A stretch of 64,000 nucleotides of DNA from Monosiga brevicollis MX1. Taxonomy: Eukaryota > Opisthokonta > Choanoflagellata > Craspedida > Salpingoecidae. Position 1 is the stretch's first letter. Each line of letters starts with the position of its first letter. The translations under genes were made by a program, and so were the position numbers. The stretch is from contig NW_001865073.1 in assembly GCF_000002865.3 (NCBI RefSeq), positions 314,361-378,360 on the forward strand, in the 5' to 3' direction. The notes under the pieces were generated by a model, which was given only the letters and a program-made list of their open reading frames with translations, had not been told where the DNA came from and searched no databases. Positions 11,544 through 25,651 of this stretch are shown piece after piece.

Positions 11544-14500
11544 ATGCTTGCAATGCGGGCGCGAGTGTGCCGGCGAGCAGCGCTGGTTTTGCTCGTTTTT
11601 CTAGGGCTAGCTCAAACAGCAAGTAGGTTCTTTTTGCAAAACGTATCTGTCGGCCTCATTGGCATCCATGGGCTCACGCTTCCCTGCTCTGCGCCACACC
11701 ATCAATAATAGATGCTTGCACAGATGCCGCGACCGCCTGCCTGAACGGCGGCAGCTGTAGCAGCGACGTCTGTACATGCCCTGCCGGCTACAGCGGTGAT
11801 CGGTGCCAGACTCTCGATGACTGCTTTGCTGCTGAAGCCTACTGGTGGGCTAGAACCGGGGTGACTACCTCCGTTTGCGAGAATGGTGGCATCTGTGACT
11901 ATGAAACCGGCCAGTGTGATTGCCTTCTTTCCTATACAGGCACCATGTGTGAGGTTGCAGTAAGCCCGTGCGACAGGCTGGGGCAGCCCTGCCAAAATGG
12001 CGCCACTTGCAACGATCAGACTGACGGCTATAGCTGTTCTTGTGCCTTTGGTTATACGGGTGCCAACTGCACGGTGATCGTTGACCTTTGCGCCAGCAAT
12101 CCCTGTGTGAACGGCGGTACCTGCTCGCAGTCAGCCGCTGGTTCATACGAGTGCAGTTGTTCCACCGGTTGGACTGGTGACGACTGCGAGGAAGACATCG
12201 ATGAATGTGCCAGTGCACCGTGCAAGAATGGTGGCTCGTGCTCGCAGCCGGTCGTGGGCGCCTTTGCCTGTGCGTGTACCGCCGGCTACTCGGGCCCAAC
12301 CTGCGAATCAGGTAAGCTTTGTCGCTCCTTGACCCATCGGACCAGCTTTCAAGCCTTGCCGTACAACTAACCATATCTTTCTGCGAATGTGCCGTTAGAG
12401 TGCCCGGACAACTGCTATGAATGTACCTTGGACGACGTTTGCACATCCTGCAATGACTATTATTATCTATATGAGGGCACCTGCGTGGCAAGCTGCCCGG
12501 TTGGTATTCCTGATGCCTACGGCTCTCTTGGCTCGGCATCCGGCCGTGAGTGTGGGCGATGGGTGGGCACACCCAGCAAGGACTCGTACCTTTTTCACTC
12601 GACCGTCACCCCTAGCGAGGTGTGCACGGCGCTGGGCTTTGGCTACAACGACCAGTTGGTCGAGACAGCTCGTGTGACGGCCCGGCGCGATGTTTGCCGC
12701 ATCTGGTATCCCAACGGTGTCTTGGAAGACAAAGCTCCCACGACCTGCGATGACAACGAGCCATACATCCTTACCCAGGAGTGCCTGACGACTTGCAATG
12801 CAAACTGCGATGAGTGCGACACGTCACAGACCTGCCGTGTCTGTGCGTCAGGCTACGTCCTGTCGACAACTCAAGAATGCGTGCTACCGACAGAGTGTGG
12901 TTCTGGAACCTATGGGGACTTGGACGCGGGAGTCTGCACAGGTGCGTCCTTCTTCGTTCTCTCCACGACTGGCTTGTCATTCAGCTTGAAGCACTATGTC
13001 CTGCCATGCTTGCACCCGATCAACCCGACCCATGCATCTCGTGTCTCACACGTTGTTTGTCCCGACGATCCGCCCTGCAGCTTGCAGTTCCTGCTTGGAG
13101 GGGACTTTTGCCAGCACGCCATGTGCTGCCACAAGCGATGCCGTTTGCTCTGCATGGACTGCTTGCGCTGACGGGCAGCTGCAGGTCGTGGCGCCTACGG
13201 CCACCTCCGATCGCATTTGCCAAGATTGCGCTGCCTGCGCCAATAATCAATACATCGAGACGCCCTGCCACCTCGAGGACGGCGCCTTTGTCGATACGAC
13301 CTGTCGTGCGTGCACTGCCTGCGCGGCTGGCCAAAGCTACCAAGTGGCGCCGTGCACTGCCACTTCCAACCGACAATGTGAAACCTGCTCGCAATGCGAG
13401 GAGGGCTATTATCTAACACAGGCGTGTGCCTACGCGGATACCGTGTGCTCACCGGTGACACCATGCGCATCTGACCAATATATCATCGTTCCTGCCGGCG
13501 CCTTTCGAGATCAGATCTGCGCCGACGTGGCTGAGTGCAGTAGCTCCCAATACGAAATACAAGGTCCAACAGCCACGTCTAATCGTGTATGCTTTGATGT
13601 CACAAGCTGCTCAAGCGCCCAGTATGAGCAGGTTGCGCCCACACCGACTAGCGATCGGGTCTGCCGAACCTGCTTCAGCTGCCCCGCCGAACACTACGTC
13701 TTATCACCTTGCAACGCAACCCGCAATACTGTGTGCGCCGGGTGCAGCCTTTGCGCTGAAGATGAGTTTATTAGCACTGCATGTGCCACACACACGGATA
13801 CAGAGTGCAGCCTTTGCCAAACCTGCGAGCTTGGCCAAACATATGCCGCCACCCCATGTCGCGATGATGCCGATACAGAGTGCGTGGCCTGCCAAACGTG
13901 CACGCAAAGCCAGTTTCAAACTGCTTCCTGCACGCTTGAAGCTGACACGACCTGCGTGGACCTTACCCCATGCACTTCGTTGGAATTCGAGTCAGTACAA
14001 CCTACAGCCACCTCAGACCGCACCTGCACGCCGCTCGCCGTTTGCAATTGGGCGACGCAGTACGCGGCAGTGCTCCCGACTCCAACATCAGATCGTACTT
14101 GTGCCAATGCCACTCAATGTGCGGCTGATCAGTTTCAGACGGCCCCTTTGACTCGCACCAGTGATCGGAGCTGTCAGACCGTGCGTTCCTGCGCAGCCAC
14201 GGATTATCAGACGGCCCTTCCAACAGCCACAACAGATCGCCAGTGCACGCCGCTTACCACTTGCCAAAATAACGAGTACGCGCTTGTTGTTGCTACTGCC
14301 ACCACGGATCGCCAATGCACGCCGGCCACACAGTGTAGCAACACGCAGTATGCTGTTATCCCCTTGACGGCTACTGCCGACCGCCAATGCGCAGCCCTTA
14401 CTGAATGTCACCTCGACTTGGAGTACGAGTCAGCCGCCCCGACTGGCACGACAGATCGGGCTTGCGAGACATATGCGGCCTGCGGCTTTACTATTGCCTT

Positions 14501-17500
14501 CACATCACTTCTGGGCGAAGCCAACAAAATATTCCCAACGGTTCTGGAAACCAGCTCGCAGCTGCTCAACATGTCCGGGGACTGCGGTCGCACCTGCTGG
14601 AGCAGTGCGCAATGCGCTGGGTTTGTCCAATGGTCCAACGAAGAATGTGTCTTGCTTCAAGCGCTGGGCGACAGTCAGGGCATCCCTTTTTCAACCACGG
14701 CCACTGTTTCCTATGCCAAACAAGCACGGCAACAGTACGAAGCCTCAAGCAAGAGCAGCACTCAAAATCGCGTTTGTCTCGACGTTCGTGAGTGCACAGA
14801 TACGCAGTTTGTCACGGCACGCCCGACCACCACTACCGATCGAGTGTGCCAAAATCAAACCGTGTGCACGGCAGATCAATACCAAACGCGTCCACCCACT
14901 GTCACCTCTGACCGAGCCTGCACTGACCTCTCCACCTGTGTGGAGGGACAAGAGTGGGTCATTGTCCGCGCAACGGCTACAACTGACCGCCAATGCGGCG
15001 ACCTCACCGAGTGCGGTACCAATGAGTTTGCCAGCGTTTTGCCGACTCTAACCACGGACCGCGTGTGCAGTACCGTCTCCGTCTGCGATAACGAAACAGA
15101 GTTTGAACTTTACGCTCCGACAACCACCAGTGATCGTCAATGTCAAGTCATTCAATCCTGCACCAGTACCCAGTATACGACCGCTGAGCCCACGGTCACC
15201 AGCGATCGCGTCTGTCTTCCCCTCACACGTTGCAACAGTACCTCGGAATATCAATCGATGGCTCCGACACCCACGAGTGATCGAGCGTGCTCTGCCATTA
15301 CTGTTTGCACGGATAGTGAGTTTGCTGCGCAGCGGCCCACCGCCACGAGCAATCGCATCTGTACGGCTCTGACCGAGTGTGAAGCAGAAACTGAATACGA
15401 GCGTACCGGCCCCTCTGCCACGACAGACCGTGTGTGCCAAACATTGACGCAATGTGACCTGACGCGGCAGTACATTGATCGCGTCGCCACTTGGTCCAGT
15501 GACCGCGTCTGCGCCAACCTAACGACCTGCGCAGAGAATGAATATCAGAGCCTCGCCAAAACAGCAACCTCCGATCGCTCGTGCTCCGCTTGTTCGCAAT
15601 GCGCAACTGACGGCAGTGTTTATCAAGCGCAGGCATGCAGTGCCACTGCCGATGCAACATGCCTTGATTGCCCTTGTGAGCAGGGTGCACCCTGCACGCA
15701 AAGCGGAAATGGCTATCAGTGTGAGTGCCCGGCAGGTTACACGGGCGTAAACTGTGAGGTAGACATCAACGAGTGCGCGGATGTGCCTTGCTCCTTTGGT
15801 TCCACATGTGTCAACCTGGTGGCAAATTACTCTTGTGTCTGCTGGGCAGGATTGTCCGGGCCCGACTGCGAGATTATGGAGGATTGCAACGCATACCGCT
15901 ATGATATCTTCGTGTCTACGGGCTTGCGCATTGACCCGTGCATGAATGGCGGCTCCTGTCAACCTTCTGGATCTTGCTCGTGTGCCATGGGCTACACTGG
16001 CTCCGCATGTGAGATTGACATTGACGAGTGTGCAGATGAGCCCTGCTTGAATGGCGGACAGTGTGAAGACGGCATCGGCAGCTACTCGTGTACCTGCGCC
16101 GAGGGCTTTGAGGGAGACGACTGCGAAATTAATATCGACGACTGCGAGAATAACAACTGCGCCATGGGCAGCACCTGTGTGGACGGTATTAACAGCTACA
16201 CGTGCGCATGTGTGCCTGGCTACACCGGCATCTTCTGTGATGAGGATATTGATGAGTGCGAACCGGTCCCGTGTCACAATGGGGCCACCTGCACCGAGGG
16301 CATCAACACGTTCACATGCACCTGTGCCTCGGGTTTTGGTGGCTCGCTATGCGATGTGGTGTGCCCGACCGACTGCGGTGCATGTGACGCCAACGGAGTT
16401 TGCTCGTCTTGCGTCAACTCCAAATATCTACAGGAGGGCGGTTGCGTGGACCTTTGCACGGATGGTTCCATGGCTAACCCCTATGCTGCCGGCGTTTCGA
16501 CCTCGGGCCGCGTGTGCGGCTACTGGGAGGGCACACCAACGCGAAGTGGCTACTACTATCACAACACTTGGACGGCCGAGAACCTCTGCCAGGACATTGG
16601 CTTCATTGGCGCCGACACCACATTTGCGGTCCAAACCAGGCGTCGCGACGTTTGCCAAATCTGGTACCCCTATGGGTTGCGCGAACTTACCACGCCGCCC
16701 TGCAATGACAACGAACCGTACATCCTTCGCTTGCGGTGCCTGACCGCTTGTAATGACTCTGCTTGTGCCAGCTGCGAGCGGGATCAGACGTGTCTCGCCT
16801 GCCAAGCACCAACTGTCTTGATTGATGACGAATGCACAACTTATTCCTCGTGCACAAGCAACGGTGATTCTTACGTCGCAATCAATCCCATGGATGGCAC
16901 GACATCTTGCTTGACCTGCACTGATTGTTTGGAGTCTGAGTTTGAAACAGCTGCGTGCGATGTGACTAGCGACCGCTCGTGCAGTGCTATCCGCGCGCCG
17001 TGTGCAAACGATGAATACGAGTCGGCAGAGCCCACAGCAACAACAGACCGGGAATGCACACCATGCCCGACTTGCCCTGCTGGCACGTATCGAACTGCTT
17101 CATCCTGCGAATGTGCCACAATCACAGCGTGCTTGGCTAGCGAATTCGAAACAACTGCGCCGACTGCAACCTCCAATCGCGAGTGCGCGCCGCGTCAGGT
17201 CTGCGATGAAGATGGCGAGTATGAGTATGATGAGGGTACGGCGACCTCCGATCGCACTTGCTGCGCTCTGGGTTACGGTGGTTCCGCCTGTGATGAGCGA
17301 CTGGTCTGCCCATCAGATAACACTTGCGATTCATCCCGAGCGTTTTGTAACGCATCAACTCCCGACGACTACGCTTGCGTGTGTTACGCGGGCCTCACCG
17401 GCCCGAACTGTGCGATGGTGGAGAACTGCGCGGCTGCCATGTTCGACGCTTTCCAGCGGTCAGGCGCACGCATCAGTCCTTGTCAAAATGGTGGCACCTG

Positions 17501-20500
17501 TTTAACATCGAGTGGTCTTTGCCAGTGTACCGACTCGTACACAGGCTCGGCCTGTGAAACGCTGATCACGACCACGACCTCCACGACCACCACTACTTCC
17601 ACGACCACCACTACTTCCACGACCACCACTACTTCCACAACCTCCACCACTTCCACCACTTCCACCACTTCCACCACCTCCACTGTGCAAGCAAGGACGT
17701 CTACCGTGATGGAAACTACTTCTGCATCGCCTGCAACATCGTCTGGCACGAGTGTTCCGTTATCCACAACCTCAGAAACAACCATTTCCACGAGTGTGCC
17801 CGTGACATCTTCATCCTCGTCGGCTTCGACTACGAGCTTTGACACCACAACAAGTTTGCGCACAACTACTTTGACAGTTTCCTCAACCGCCACCTCCTCG
17901 ACAACTGCAGCTGGACGGACATCAACCACAGCCTCTATCGAAACGACGGCTGGCCCATCTTCATCCAGCACCTCTGCCGACACTGTTTCAACCTTGAGTA
18001 CTGTGCTCACGTCAACAATGCATGATGCCACAACCACATCCAATTCTTTCACAACTACCACTGCAGCAACAACGACGGCGGCGGCAACGACAACGGTCAT
18101 GATTTCCACCGCCACCACGTCCGCCACCACGTCCGCCACCACGTCCGCCACCACGTCCGCCACCATATCTACCACGGAGGAAGTTGATGCTCCTGCTGTT
18201 CCGGGGTATGCACTGCGTTACCATAGCTTGCCCATGGCGAGCGAACGGTTAATTTTCTCGACAGCCTTTGATGACGCAGCTCGCATTGAGTCGGTGCAAA
18301 ATGTTGAGCCAGTTTCATGCGGCGCTCTTTGCAGTGCAAATGCCGAGTGCCTGGGCTTTGTCGTCTGGACTGTCAGTTTTGATGCTGGTGATATCAACTG
18401 CGTGCTTTTGCGTTCTTTGGGAGACCCGGAGATCACAACGTTATTTTCATTGAGTTACGAGAGGCTGAACGAAACAACGCCGGGCTCAACGACAGCACAA
18501 TCGTCCTCAGTACCCGTGACGAGTTCAACTTTGGCCGTGAGCAGCACGTCCAGCACAGCTGCTGAGACTACTACCACCGATTCTGTGTCTAGCTCCCAAT
18601 CGGTGACAACCTCAACAGGCAGCTCCAGTCCTGTCACCTCGACCACGGCAGCCTCTACAAGTACTGTCTCTGCAAGTACCACCATGTTTGTCGCCACAAC
18701 AACTGATGCCGGAAACCTTAGTACCGGCACGTCTGACACAACCACAGAGGCCATCTCCTCAACATCTGGTTTCGCGACAAGCACTCTCAACTCGACTTCC
18801 ACGGCATCTGCACCCACGACTACAAACATGTCAACTTCGACCACTTCTACCACTTCTACATCAACCACTACCACTTCGACCACCACCACTACCACTTCAA
18901 CCACTTCTACCACCACTACCACTTCTACCACTTCTACCACTTCGACCACCTCTACCACCTCTACCACCTCTACCACCTCTACCACCTCTACCACGACTAC
19001 CACCTCTACCACGACTACCACCTCTACCACGACTACGACTACGACCACTACCACTACCACTACCACTACTACCGACATTCCTTTCTGGACTGCAGCACAA
19101 AATTTCTCTCAGACCTCTCCGTTTACCCACTATGTTGTGTGCACTGGTGCTACGCCGCAGGCTCTCGAGACTGAGCTATACGCATCTCTTTCTGTTCTTC
19201 TTGATACACCAGATGTAGAGGTCACATGCTTTAGCGAAGGGTCTCCGTGTCGAATCGCAATTAACACCTCAGAGGCGTGGCAAGTACTAGCTGATCAACT
19301 TCAAGATGGGGCAATGGTCACCCTCCCCAGCTCAACTTGTCTAGCCTCATCCTTGGTTCCTCATCTGGTTGATAGCAACGGCTGGGTAGCCCCGGTGACT
19401 GCTGCCACATCCAGTCGTGCTTGGTTGGAGCCAGAAACTTCTGCCCGGTTGGGCCGAGCTTCCCTGGCCAGCACTATCGAGGCCACGACTCTGGCTGGAG
19501 CACCAGTTGCCATCGAGGTTGTGGTGGGCGCGCAGGGTCTGGTCTACGAAACGTGGCCCTACTTTACTTTTGTGCTTCGCCCGCTCGACGCACTGCAGCG
19601 TACCACAATGTTGCCTGACATCGATTCCCTGAACGTGTCTATTCTGGGCGTTGATGCCACAGCGCTGACGGTGGCGTTCGAAACAAGCCCCACGGGCTTG
19701 GTTGTGGCTCGTGTCACTTTGAGCGCCGGTGCCTTTGGCGGAGACGAAGGCGTTGCATCGGTGACGTTGGACACTGAGGTTGGCCCAGTGGCTTGCGGTG
19801 AAGTGAGCTTGCGTGCCTTTGCGCCTGCACCGGTAGCTGACAAGATTACTGTTGTCCTCCCACAACATGGCATCGCACCTGGCGGTCAAGGAAGGGTACA
19901 GGTTTGGGTCAATACGACGGCCGAATTGCGCTCCTACTGGCTTGAATTTGTCAACAGCGCCTACATCACATTTACCGTTGTTGGCGGGTATGATGGTGAA
20001 TCTTGGTCAGTCCAATCACTGGACAAGTCGTCCGGCGTGAGTGTGACTGCAGTTGCCACTGCTCTTCGTGCCAATGTTCAATTGGAGCAATTGTTGGAAG
20101 TCACTTTTGAGGTGGCAGCCAACATTCCCTTGACTGTCCTCTCTCAGCCATTAGGTGTGATTGTTCGCGAAGCCTATGATGCCTCAGGGCCAATCTTTAC
20201 TGCTTCATCCGATGTTGTGTTTGAAGATCGCCTGGGCAGTAGCGCCGGTAGCACCGGCACGGTATATGTGCGCCATCCCACGCCGCAAGCTCTTTTTGTC
20301 GACACACCAGTGGCTGAAACCCTGCATCTTGGCGCCTTGACTGGCCGAAGCAGCGGTGTTGGTTCCACACGCATTGCCGTCACCGCGGCTATTGTGGATG
20401 ATGCCGGTGATATTTCCCTTGTGAATGGCACAGAAATCAGCTGCCTTGCTGCCAGTGCTTCTTTGAACAATGATTGCTACAACCTGATCGTTCCACCTTC

Positions 20501-23500
20501 TTTTACACGAGATAGTTTGTCGGTCACCTTCACCTATCAAGACGCCATTTCGACCATCGTTAGTTTTGCAATCGTCCAGCCCTCAAGCCTGATTTTGGCA
20601 CCAGCCAGCAAAGAAACGCACATGTTCCTAAACGCAGGCACATGCCAACCCACGTTTTTGCCGGTTTCCGTGAGCATCGTTGCCGCATTTTCAGCCCACG
20701 ATGGTACCGTTGAGATGGATCTCACCGACTTCTTGCAAGACCACCTGATGGTGTCGGGCCCAGCCACTGTGCTGAATGCGCAGGTTCTGCCCACATCGCG
20801 TGGTCAGGTGGGGGTGTCCGTGGCTGCTGGAGGCTTGCAGCATGATATCAACATCACGGCCCGGCGCTCAATTGACTCGCCGGTGGCTCTGCTGGCGCAG
20901 GTAACAACCGGCCTCTCGTTTACCCTCACAGAGAATAGTGTGCTGCCTGAAGCACGCATGACTCTTCGCGGAAGCATTACTGAAGCCGTGCAAGCTGGTC
21001 TGGTTGACCTGGCCGTCGTTACAGCCACCGGTCGTCTGGTCACTCTGACGGACTCTGACGCTCCTTGGGTTCAAACCCATCAGGGTGTCGGGTTTGGAGC
21101 TGTGGAGCTGAATAGCGACATGGACTCCCTCTCTTACGCCTGGCACCATCCTTGCTACGCCCCAGTGACAACCACGTTGCAACTCGTGAAACGGCTTCGT
21201 TCCGCTACGGCACTTTCTGCAACGTTAAGCAGTGACGTGCTGGTCGGACCAGCCTCTGCCCTGGTCCAACTCGGTTTTCCCACCGCCTCGCAATTAACGC
21301 TGACTGCAGCTTATGACGATGGTTCTGAAGCCAGCGTCGTGCCGGACAGCGTGTCCGTCGAAGCACTGAGTACTGGTGTGCAGGTTCAAGTGGTCAACGG
21401 CACCGTGACTCCCCTTGCTTCCTCCACCGCAGGCTACGCTCGGCTGACCATGGGCTATCAGGATGTAACGGCGGACATTTTTATCACTGTCGTGGATGCT
21501 GAGAACATCACTCTTGCTGTTGCTCCATACACCGGGGCAGATTCACTTCGGTATAGCACTATGGCTACGCTGTATCGCGTGCAAGGGAGTTCTCATATGA
21601 CCGAGGCCGTTTTGCAGGCACGCGTGACGTTGACCGACGGCGCCATGCACCCACTTGCGCTGAGTGTCGCAGACCTCGTGATCAACAACAATCTGGTCGC
21701 TGTTGATGCGGAGACAGCGCGTGTCACGGCCACAACCGTGGGTGTAGACGGCGCAACTACCATCAGCCTCCGCTGGCAGAGCCTGGTATCCAACGCCATT
21801 GAGTTGACCGCTTCATCTCAAGCGCTTGCCATCACAGCCATCATGGGGTTGACAGTCGATGGCACTGCTGCCTTGCGTGGTTTGCCCAATGAGGTGCAGC
21901 CGCTCGAACTTTCTCTGGAGCTTGGTAATGGGGTTCAGACCTGGGCACCAACGTACGTGAACGAGCTGCGCGAGATGGGACAATTGGCCAGTATCTTGCA
22001 GTTCAACTCGAGCGATGTCAACACCTTGAACGTCGATCCGGAAGGACGAGTTACCTTGCTAGCCAACAGTGCCGGCAGTGTGGACCTAACGGCCTGGGCG
22101 CCCTCTGGAGCTTCGCTGACCGCGAGTTTGCGCGTCAATCTAGATCCAGCCGACTTGGATGCTGACCTTGGAGCTATCACGGGGCTGGCGCTCGGCACTT
22201 TAAACGTCGGCCAAGAGATTGAGGTGCCCGTTCGCATTCACATGGGCGCGCGGGCATTGCGGGCGATGCAGATTGCCATTACCTATGATGCTACTGCACT
22301 GTCACCCGTGCGCGTTCTCAAGGGATCAAACTGGGCTACTGGCCAGATGCTGGCCAACTTGGATGGCTATGCAGGCCGTGTCGAGGTGGGTGGTACGTTG
22401 ACCACGACCGCGGGCGTCACGTTACCTGAGGTCGTTCGCGTGGTTTTTGAGGTTCTGGACACTGCGCCCGCCACGTCATACATTGGTGGTACCTTGATTC
22501 GTTTGTACGCTGGAGTCAATCTTGATGAGGTGGTCACAGATGCACCCATCATCGCTGGCCACCTTTTCTTCAATGTGGCCTCGGTCTCGCGCCGTGATAC
22601 TGTTGTAATGCCTGCACCCCAGCATGAATCCCAGTTTGCCAGCGGAGCTGAGCACCGCGCTCGACGGGCAGTAGTGTGTCCAACCGCAGTCCTGGGTGAC
22701 TATGATGGTGACTGTTCTGTTACCATCAAGGACGTGGCCACGGGGCTGCAAACGCTGCTTGCCAGTGATTCGTCCCGCATCGTGGTGACCAGCGCCACCA
22801 GCCACATGGATCTGGACCATGATGGCTATTTGACTGTGGCAGACGTGGATTATCTCTCCAAGGCCGTGTTTGGCTTTTTCCCTATTTGGAGCCAGCTCGC
22901 TGTACAAGGGCCGGACGCTGGTCGCTCCAATTGTACTCTGCAGCTCTCGGTGTACCTTAATGACCGCTCACAGGCGCCCATTACCTCCGATACCCGTGTG
23001 TGGTTTGATATGGAAAGCTCGGACTCTGACATGGCCACAGACTTGAGTGCCAGCCGTTTTGTACGGGGTGGGTCCACAATTTTGAGCAAGTCAGCGCCGT
23101 ATACGGGCCGCTTTGTGGAGGCAGAATCAACTGGCGACGGCTTCTATACCATCGAGTTGGAAAGCGCCCTTGAACCTGCTACCTTGTCCGTCTCGTTGGT
23201 GCTGGTGACCTTGCGCACGGACGGATCAACGTCGTCAGAGCGCGTCACGCCTCTGCAAGGCGGGGCCAAGTTTGCACCGTATACTTTTACATCCCGCATG
23301 CAAACAACGCTGCCACTCAATAGCGTAGTGGTGTCCAGCTCTGGATACAACCCGGCGACCCAAGCAAACATGCGACAGACCTCCCTGACCTGTGCGCCTG
23401 ATTATTGCGCCTTGGACCCGTGTCTCAGCGGCGGCTCATGTATTAAAGAGTTCTTTGACTACCGGTGTGTCTGTGCGCCAGGGTACCTTGGTGCCAACTG

Positions 23501-25651
23501 TGAAATAAATGCAGATGACTGTGGAGGGCACGACTGCCAGAACGGGGCGACATGCGTGGACGGGGTCGACGGCTACTACTGTGCATGTGCACCCGGCTTT
23601 GACGGAGAAACATGTGCGGAGAACATTGATGACTGTACCGAGTCTGCGTGCGCTCATGGTGGAACGTGCGTTGATGAGGTACACGGCTACTCCTGCGAGT
23701 GCCCCACCGGCTATCGTGGTGACTTTTGCCAGTGGGTGTCAGATCCTTGCGATGCCGATCCTTGCGGCGCAAACAAGCGGGAAATTGATGGATGCACGTC
23801 TACCGGCTTAGCATACACCTGCAACTGCCAGGATGGTTATTTTGGCGACAACTGCGAGTTTGGTGTTGATGCCTGCGCCACCGGCTACTGTCAGCATGGT
23901 GGACAGTGCCAAGGAGCACCGGAGGGCTTGGTGCCCATTTGCAATTGCACCGGAACTGGCTACACGGGTGATCAGTGTGAGGTTGAGTTGGACGAGTGCA
24001 TCACCACCCCTTGCCTGCATGGTGGTACTTGCTTGGACAAGGTCAATGGATTTGCTTGCACGTGCCCAACAACCTACTTTGGTGATTTGTGTGAAGTTGG
24101 TGAGTGTGGCGCTGTTCTCCATATTCCTACTGTCTCCGCCCAGGTTCTTACGCACGAGGTGCTTCTTCTCGCATTTACTCACTTTTGCGCTGTTTCATCT
24201 TTAGACTTTTTTGCGGAGTACCCGTGCCGTAATGGTGGTACTCCAAACCGCACGACTGCGCGATGCGAGTGCACAAGCGGCTTTGAGGGACGCTTTTGCG
24301 ATGTGGTTTCCGCGGGGAGCAACTCGTCAACAGGAGTGGTCGAAGGTTCGGCGGATTCGGGCGACGACAACAGCCAGGCCTACATTGGCGCATATGTGGG
24401 GGTGGCAGCCTTGATTGTTTTAGTGGCAATCGCGCTGCTGTTTGTGGCTCGTCGTCGCTATTCTGGCGGTGCCGGTATTTCCAACAACAAGTCGTCCTTC
24501 GATTGGGAGGGCATTGACGAGAGCGATGAACGACGCCCCAAGGGAGAAACGCTGCAACGTATTTCCTTAAACATGGAGCCGGAAATTATGGAAATGGCTG
24601 AGGTACCCAACCCTGAATATGCCAGTGCAAACGACCAAGTGGCTGTCCTTGAAGAGATGCTATCCCCCCAGCNNNNNNNNNNNNNNNNNNNNNNNNNNNN
24701 NNNNNNNNNNNNNNNNNNNNNNNNNNNNNNNNNNNNNNNNNNNNNNNNNNNNNNNNNNNNNNNNNNNNNNNNNNNNNNNNNNNNNNNNNNNNNNNNNNNN
24801 NNNNNNNNNNNCCCCCCCCCCCCCCCCCCCCCCCCCCCCTGCGTCAGGCGCTTTTTAGCTCATTTGTTTTGATTTCCCGCTTGACATTTACCTATGCGTG
24901 CTGCTGCCATATCTTTTGTGTAGATGATGATACGCTGGTCCACCTACAAGACGAACAGAACAGCTATATCAATGCCAATCATGTCACGTTTGCGGAGGAG
25001 GGCCGTACCCTCTGGTATATTGCAGCGCAGGGGCCCTTGCCCGGAACCGTTGGTGACTTTTGGCGCATGGTCTGGGAACAAGGCTCACAGATCGTGGTCA
25101 TGGTGACCGGAGAAGTTGAAGGAGGCAAGGTCAAGTGTGAGCGCTATTGGCCCACGGAGACGGGTGAATACGATGCCCTGGTTTTCGGAGACCTCAAGAT
25201 TAGTCTCGTCAAGAGCGTCAGCAGTGGCAACTACACCATTCGTGGTCTGCGCGTGCGCAACATGAGCGAAGACCTCATGCGCACTGTCTGGCATCTCCAG
25301 TACACGGCCTGGCCTGATCACTCTGTGCCGAAAACTCCATCATCATTGTTGGATTTTATTGATGAGATCCGTGAAATTCGTGTCCGTCTGATGGGAGTTG
25401 CAGTGAACAACCCACCATGGCCCACGGTGGTTCATTGCTCGGCCGGCGTGGGCCGCACCGGCGTGCTGATGCTGGTGGAGAGTGAGCTAATCCGCCTCGA
25501 GCAGGGTATGCGACCCAACCCGCGCCAAACCCTAGTGGAACTCCGCGAGCAGCGTGCTAAGGTGGTGCAGACGGAGGAGCAATACGAGTTCTGTCTTCGT
25601 ACTTTGCTTGAGGTGGCTCGCAAGCGCCAAACAGCGGAGACAGCTGCCTAA
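11544..25651 (+). CDS. Giant receptor-type tyrosine phosphatase with EGF, TNFR-like, mucin and cohesin/dockerin-like ectodomain
   Basis: Exons 11544-11622, 11712-12311, 12399-12941, 13081-24099 and 24205 onwards keep frame; an assembly gap removes the juxtamembrane-PTP junction and at least one intron. A signal peptide (LALVLLVFLGLAQTA-like, residues about 8-25) is followed by about five EGF domains, a Cys/Trp module (12510-12790), a long TNFR-like array (13081-15660), about six EGFs (15660-16360), a second Cys/Trp module (16440-16745), more TNFR-like repeats and EGF, two Thr/Ser mucin stretches (17560-18180, 18480-19075) around a PAN-like module, a beta-rich region with cohesin-like (22175-22530) and dockerin-like (22690-22890) parts, about eight EGFs (23395-24330), a membrane helix (24385-24450, then RRRY) and one PTP domain (24925-25640). 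The PTP has WPDHSVP, HCSAGVGRTG and QTEEQYEF, so it should be active. Total about 4,500 residues. Confidence 0.9.
12510..12790 (+). other. Cys/Trp module, copy 1, in receptor phosphatase
   Basis: Segment with GRECGRWVGTP, VTARRDVCRIWYPNG and CDDNEPYIL. A second copy lies at 16440-16745 (GRVCGYWEGTP, RRRDVCQIWYPYG, CNDNEPYIL). I do not recognise it as a named domain. Both copies precede a furin-like CxxC segment. Confidence 0.8.
13081..15660 (+). repeat. TNFR-like Cys-rich repeat array (protein-level)
   Basis: Several dozen units of about 20-25 residues of the pattern C-x(3-6)-[QE]-[YF]-x-x(4)-P-T-x-T-[ST]-[DN]-R-x-C, for example QYQTRPPTVTSDRAC. The pattern resembles TNFR/NGFR cysteine-rich and GCC2/GCC3 repeats. 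Further units occur at 16900-17270. Confidence 0.8.
16440..16745 (+). other. Cys/Trp module, copy 2, in receptor phosphatase
   Basis: Paralogue of the 12510-12790 module in the same protein, with matching cysteine spacing and the DNEPYIL signature, followed by a CxxC-rich stretch. Confidence 0.8.
17560..19075 (+). repeat. ACC/ACT/TCC low-complexity coding Thr/Ser mucin-like stalks
   Basis: Two Thr/Ser-rich blocks (17560-18180 and 18480-19075) with trinucleotide tracts such as ACCACT and TCTACC, separated by the PAN-like module at 18200-18470. They are likely O-glycosylated stalk segments of the receptor phosphatase. Confidence 0.85.
24100..24204 (+). other. In-frame 105-bp intron of the receptor phosphatase
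   Basis: GTGAGT donor after an EGF-coding GTT-G and a CATCTTTAG acceptor. The length is a multiple of three with no stop, so the frame reads through, but the encoded stretch is hydrophobic and breaks the EGF pattern, which supports splicing. Confidence 0.8.
24673..24839. other. Assembly gap (139 N) followed by a 28-base C run
   Basis: N's occupy 24673-24811. C's at 24812-24839 abut the gap and are probably where sequencing failed. The true gap length is unknown. The N-terminal part of the PTP domain (the KNRY region) should lie in or near the gap. Confidence 0.95.

Follow-up and report, generated by a model that had tools for sequence, protein, structure and literature searches.

A furin-type site between a cohesin and a dockerin-like domain in a candidate receptor phosphatase of Monosiga brevicollis

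Introduction

LAR-type protein tyrosine phosphatases (PTPs) are furin-cut, two-chain receptors, and eukaryotic dockerins have already been listed in earlier work. What would a cohesin and a dockerin do side by side in the ectodomain of a receptor phosphatase? The question is raised by a locus of the choanoflagellate M. brevicollis MX1, which lies in the stretch of 64,000 nucleotides analysed here (the window; contig NW_001865073.1, positions 314,361 to 378,360 of the forward strand) and is numbered from the first letter of that stretch. For TMEM132, lefftyrins, coherins and hedglings, one source describes a cohesin together with bacterial-type Ig domains, three in number, and reports dockerins as not detectable in vertebrates (PMC6030884); another states that LAR arose in choanoflagellates such as Monosiga (PMC7959691). 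A reading of the letters alone (the sequence-only reading) had proposed a cohesin-like region, followed by a dockerin-like double calcium loop, in a receptor tyrosine phosphatase. The locus was analysed by profile and sequence searches and compared with the rest of the genome (39.5 Mb, 57 contigs).

The receptor locus

In the window, 12990-24872 on the forward strand reads as one stop-free frame of 3960 residues, and the five peptides quoted in the sequence-only reading all fall in it, at 22206-22856. The order along the frame is TNFR-like and EGF repeats, a Ser/Thr-rich stretch, a beta/Ig-like region, the cohesin, the dockerin, EGF repeats, a transmembrane helix and a juxtamembrane segment. 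The features of the locus are as follows.

12990..24671, forward strand: receptor exon frame up to an assembly gap, stop-free (open-frame reading, Pfam)
19872..20138, forward strand: possible first, TMEM132-type cohesin, weak and a lead only (family cohesin profile, 6.8 bits, E 0.34)
21171..22139, forward strand: beta/Ig-like region 5' of the cohesin, common to paralogues (blastp against the C34 paralogue, 6.9e-38)
22140..22562, forward strand: cohesin domain (Pfam PF00963, leave-one-out profile; end set by the full family profile)
22656..22667, forward strand: proprotein-convertase-type site RARR followed by A, residues 3223-3226 (motif scan, alignment A1)
22677..22679, forward strand: Cys just past the cut site, expected to form a disulfide with the Cys of loop 1 at 22713-22715 (module counts)
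22695..22889, forward strand: dockerin-like domain (PF00404 below cut-off, leave-one-out profile, loop reading)
22698-22733, forward strand: calcium loop 1, DYDGDCSVTIKD (sequence reading)
22809-22844, forward strand: calcium loop 2, DLDHDGYLTVAD (sequence reading)
22890..23375, end approximate, forward strand: post-dockerin region, alignable across modules and ending near GYNP
24384..24446, forward strand: transmembrane helix, IGAYVGVAALIVLVAIALLFV, the sole hydropathy candidate in the 3960-residue frame
24673..24811, forward strand: assembly gap of 139 N, then a poly-C run (within 24673-24850; sequence reading)
24924..25651, forward strand: PTP exon after an acceptor-like tttgtgtag (PF00102, sequence reading)

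Pfam matches the N-terminal part (12990-19073) to TNFR_c6 (1.6e-23) and EGF (1.9e-25), and finds EGF again beyond the module, at 23364-24671 (6.1e-32); EGF-like frames visible by eye 5' of 12990 represent further upstream exons. A blastp alignment to the C34 paralogue starts at about residue 2728 and runs through the dockerin part, and TMEM132 Ig matches in the paralogues suggest that the region at 21171-22139 is of Ig nature. The post-dockerin region (22890-23375) is without a Pfam match, and an NCBIfam scan returned no useful family. Within the Ser/Thr-rich region, a Cys-containing stretch at 18180-18430 looks PAN/apple-like and resembles residues 500-590 of the same frame, both by eye.

The PTP exon matches PF00102 over profile positions 14-234 of 234 (E 1.1e-68) and carries the WPD motif and HCSAGVGRTG (25433-25462); the first 13 profile positions presumably lie in the gap or in an unseen exon. 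For the receptor phosphatase proposed earlier, the PTP exon lies on the same strand behind an acceptor-like site; the 139-N gap and an apparent intron separate the transmembrane exon from it. A dockerin and a PTP do share one frame in at least two other loci, C4 and C10, where the two matches agree in contig, strand and frame length. That the window gene encodes a receptor-type tyrosine phosphatase, joined across the gap and the apparent intron, is supported but not proven.

The cohesin and the dockerin-like domain

The proposed cohesin-like region is borne out. PF00963 matches about 22203-22487 (profile 11-112 of 139, E 9.1e-9) with 36.1 bits, above the curated cut-off of 24.1 bits, and a profile of 10 paralogues with the window left out scores the domain at 76.1 bits (E 1.4e-22), against 4.7 bits for the best reversed sequence. 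A single-sequence AlphaFold model of 22140-22889 was unusable (mean pLDDT 30.7).

For the second domain, PF00404 is matched along nearly its whole length (positions 1-55 of 57) at 14.5 bits on the window and 17.6 bits in the genome-wide search, both below its cut-off of 22.9, and EF-hand models reach similar E-values. Pfam alone therefore cannot establish a dockerin here, and the missed cut-off is the reason for the name dockerin-like. The double loop itself was read correctly: both calcium loops are complete and of the D-x-[DN]-x-[DN] type, and the profile of 10 paralogues, again with the window left out, gives 31.6 bits (E 1.4e-8), against 6.4 bits for the best reversed sequence. Throughout alignment A1 (11 rows), each loop has Asp at positions 1 and 12.

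An 11-sequence profile that includes the window was compared with solved structures, and among the best 60 of 218 matches the top was a cellulosomal dockerin (4fl4_A, E 1.7e-7), with the first calmodulin four orders weaker (0.0075), cohesins at 0.001-0.021 and two chains named serine protease in the top ten (3e-5). With the single window pair as query, phmmer returned only chance chains and calcineurin B (E 0.84). The sequence-only reading had named a generic EF-hand with no cohesin as one of two refutations; the profile searches returned a cohesin. At the level of sequence, the receptor frame carries a cohesin and dockerin-like pair.

A recurring module

Beyond what the sequence-only reading had seen, the cohesin-dockerin pair is a recurring module of the M. 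brevicollis genome. PF00963 has six genomic matches, all above cut-off, and a dockerin-like pair lies within 250 residues after each of the six (two are copies in one frame). PF00404 has 13 matches at E up to 1, six of them above cut-off, two of these again copies in one frame; on reading, 9 of the 13 lie in module frames. Of the four dropped as module dockerins, L015 and L016 read as calmodulin-like, L013 as a short EF hand, and in L018 no second loop was seen.

At E up to 1, Pfam recognises a dockerin in 10 and a cohesin in 7 of the 11 aligned members; two modules used as tblastn queries brought in six more. Apart from that of the window, sixteen non-duplicate modules score at least 19.7 bits against the family dockerin profile, into which 10 of the 16 were themselves built. 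The 19 modules counted below include two weak dockerins, the first of C11 (11.7 bits over profile positions 4-25) and C11 repeat 2 (13.3 bits), and exclude near-identical copies (C40b, the second C38 copy L008 and the third C11 repeat); the survey leaves out C55:931685 and the surroundings of the TMEM132 matches L027 and L030.

The cytoplasmic ends that go with the module differ from gene to gene. C4 (L041, L042, L009) has a dockerin, FN3 repeats, a transmembrane segment and two PTP domains, with dockerin and PTPs in a 4334-residue frame on one strand; C10 combines TMEM132 Ig, dockerin, cadherins and a PTP in a frame of 5934 residues; C54 has a transmembrane segment and a PDZ domain, and C31 a transmembrane segment and, by eye, a tyrosine-rich tail.

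C38, C40 and C11 (L007/L008, L037/L038, L046/L047) are giant frames with in-frame tandem module copies about 4.7-5.4 kb apart. The tandem copies have identical cohesin or dockerin scores, and the post-dockerin regions of C40 have diverged; either recent duplication with homogenisation or an assembly effect would account for the copies. Residues 1917-1961 of the C40 stretch give a weak Cadherin_pro match (E 0.026).

A furin-type site between the domains

Alignment of the modules revealed a basic cluster between cohesin and dockerin, a feature that the sequence-only reading had overlooked. In the window it is RARR; no other R-X-[KR]-R occurs among the 3960 residues of the frame, and calcium loop 1 follows ten residues later. 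The motif occupies the same columns in 10 of the 11 rows of alignment A1; the remaining row, C10, reads DQGR followed by P there, its only RRRR lying 50 residues away, upstream.

Of the first 12 non-duplicate modules, 11 carry the motif within the 100-residue stretch that leads up to loop 1; these 1200 residues hold 18 motifs, and the 19,182 residues elsewhere hold one. The modules fetched after the rule had been formed follow it in five cases out of six, and the C11 repeat also carries the motif. Overall, 17 of 19 non-duplicate modules, which, as paralogues of common descent, are not independent events, have R-X-[KR]-R at most 100 residues ahead of loop 1; the total is 27 motifs in 1900 residues and one in the 21,043 elsewhere (with about 405 residues of C11 entering twice). 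The two exceptions are the first dockerin of C11, which is weak and has no cohesin match in the 600 residues read, and C55, where no cohesin was seen in the 195 residues read.

Position and composition were controlled separately. In 20,000 trials with random 100-residue windows on 18 sequences (C55, too short, was excluded), at most 10 of the 18 had a motif, against 17 of 18 observed. Shuffling the linkers of 11 modules with Arg content kept gave a mean of 1.0 and a maximum of 5 motifs, against 18 observed. Seven other large-frame stretches of the genome contain none (five stretches), one (L052) or 11 motifs (L049, in a Lys/Arg repeat).

The distance of the site from loop 1 varies from 6 to 77 residues. 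The linker holds two separate R-X-[KR]-R in eight of the 19 modules; in four more, the window among them, one is accompanied by another RR or RRR, so that the linker may be excised. In C11 repeat 2 (loop 1) and L062 (loop 2) the motif is kept and one calcium loop is degenerate, so that cleavage would not always accompany a full two-calcium dockerin.

A loop-1 Cys (in L062 it lies one residue further on) and a second Cys within the 30 residues before the loop occur together in 16 of 19 modules, and neither occurs in the other three (Fisher p 0.001, uncorrected for relatedness). In the window both Cys lie wholly on the membrane side of the cut, and the predicted disulfide would therefore pin the new N-terminus of the dockerin and not tie the two chains.

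The genome contains a furin/kexin-like fragment with GTSAAAP and a P-domain above cut-off; the Asp and His motifs of a convertase were not found in the fragment stretch examined. Cleavage of the linker by a convertase is strongly suggested by the motif and its placement.

A predicted two-chain receptor

A site of this type between the two domains points to proteolytic maturation and to a clasp in cis. The preferred reading, to which we give an even chance, is a receptor PTP whose ectodomain would be cut between cohesin and dockerin, with the chains held by a calcium-dependent clasp within the molecule. The module would run from the Ig-like region through cohesin, basic linker and dockerin to a beta region, followed by EGF repeats, the transmembrane helix and the PTP. 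During secretion, a furin/kexin-like convertase would very probably cut after RARR, yielding two subunits: a large N-terminal one that spans the repeats up to the cohesin, and one anchored in the membrane that runs from the dockerin to the PTP. The dockerin, pinned by its Cys pair and loaded with two calcium ions, would bind the cohesin of the same molecule and keep the chains together. Loss of the N-terminal subunit through force, low calcium or ligand might, speculatively, expose the stump and alter PTP activity or clustering.

We infer pairing in cis because the adjacent pair recurs: together with the cut site and the mostly intact calcium ligands, it is most simply explained by a non-covalent joint formed before cutting. 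Several observations count against the preferred reading, namely the variable motif position and two modules that retain the site with one degenerate loop, and also the sub-cut-off dockerin of the window, the fragmentary convertase candidate and a PTP that lies across a gap and an apparent intron. The degenerate loops speak for an account in which the linker is cut and the pair is not the holder: the cut-off N-terminal chain would be lost from the cell, or would be retained by the Ig-like or post-dockerin region, the dockerin being a relic fold. With Asp at positions 1 and 12 of both loops in 11 aligned modules, and all six Pfam cohesins paired with a dockerin-like region, this account is unlikely.

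Binding could also be in trans, as homophilic adhesion between the dockerin of one receptor and the cohesin of a second receptor carried by that cell or its neighbour. Many paralogues could mix in this way, and cellulosomal cohesins bind dockerins on other proteins (PMC6030884); yet cohesin and dockerin adjoin in most modules, with the cut site between them, and none of the six Pfam cohesins is without a neighbouring dockerin-like region, which makes action in trans improbable. For the bacterial recognition suggested in the sequence-only reading, the analysis turned up evidence in neither direction. A further alternative, an ordinary beta domain next to a generic EF-hand pair with an uncut basic cluster, draws on the near-equal scores of EF-hand and dockerin models on the window alone. 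It is very improbable in view of the leave-one-out scores (76.1 and 31.6 bits), the dockerins ranking above calmodulins among the best 60 of 218 structure matches, and the motif position and shuffle controls.

A wider reading, possible and somewhat short of even, is that before animals a bacterial-type cohesin:dockerin pair became a receptor part of general use. It would be a clasp cut in advance and locked by calcium, made as proinsulin is, which joins the chain that binds ligand to the chain that signals in phosphatase, PDZ-linked and cadherin receptors and can let them go under force or calcium loss. Such a clasp would do the job of other cleaved receptor domains in animals. The preferred reading, if right, gives the pair a receptor role outside cellulosomes and explains why both domains stand in one polypeptide. 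It would also supply a design for a two-chain receptor that can be tested directly, a LAR-like tandem PTP among the cases, in an organism that is probably a near single-celled relative of animals, and make cohesin function in TMEM132-type proteins easier to test.

Relation to known systems and possible sources

A cohesin with bacterial-type Ig in a holozoan transmembrane adhesion protein is what the module shares with TMEM132 proteins and with lefftyrin, coherin and hedgling among the cadherins (PMC6030884), and several M. brevicollis paralogues have a Pfam TMEM132 Ig in the dockerin frame. What sets it apart from the TMEM132/lefftyrin type is a further cohesin with a cut site and a dockerin behind it, an arrangement not described in the sections of PMC6030884 consulted. 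The TMEM132 Ig model (PF16070) has 14 matches in the genome, none at the window locus, and a TMEM132 profile from 12 paralogue stretches found none in the 12990-24872 frame; a TMEM132 core in the window gene was dropped, as neither Pfam nor the paralogue profile found a fourth TMEM132 domain in 12990-24671. Pfam scans of 12990-24671 found no cadherin repeats, and none of the 150 scored among 288 genomic cadherin candidates lies at the window locus.

Like LAR-type and other furin-cut receptor PTPs, the window gene would encode a receptor-type PTP whose ectodomain carries a convertase-type site, and the likeness extends in the C4 paralogue to FN3 repeats, a transmembrane segment and tandem PTPs. 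In the window gene, by contrast, the cut would fall between cohesin and dockerin, one PTP domain was read, and EGF repeats stand in place of FN3. C4 itself is a LAR-like receptor bearing the cohesin-cut site-dockerin module, and both its PTPs carry HCSAGVGRTG. Cellulosomal pairs (PF00963, PF00404) share the two domains, the duplicated calcium loop and the match to solved dockerins, whereas here a single polypeptide of a transmembrane receptor holds both domains, along with a Cys pair and an intervening protease-type site. In the open-licence literature, which leaves most subscription papers outside, we found no description of a cut cohesin-dockerin receptor or such a phosphatase, nor of a cut site conserved between a cohesin and a dockerin.

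For prokaryotic relatives alignment A2 served as the query, A1 being too divergent. A2 found no confirmed viral relative, and tblastn of phages with the window pair found none. Against a bacterial and archaeal collection A2 returned one locus (L054), from an FCB-group bacterium rich in dockerins; its frame of 1469 residues has the loop-1 Cys as well but lacks any R-X-[KR]-R. These searches thus found no complete prokaryotic source of the module. The FCB-group dockerins of L054 share the Cys at calcium loop position 6 (GDANGDC, GDVNNDC).
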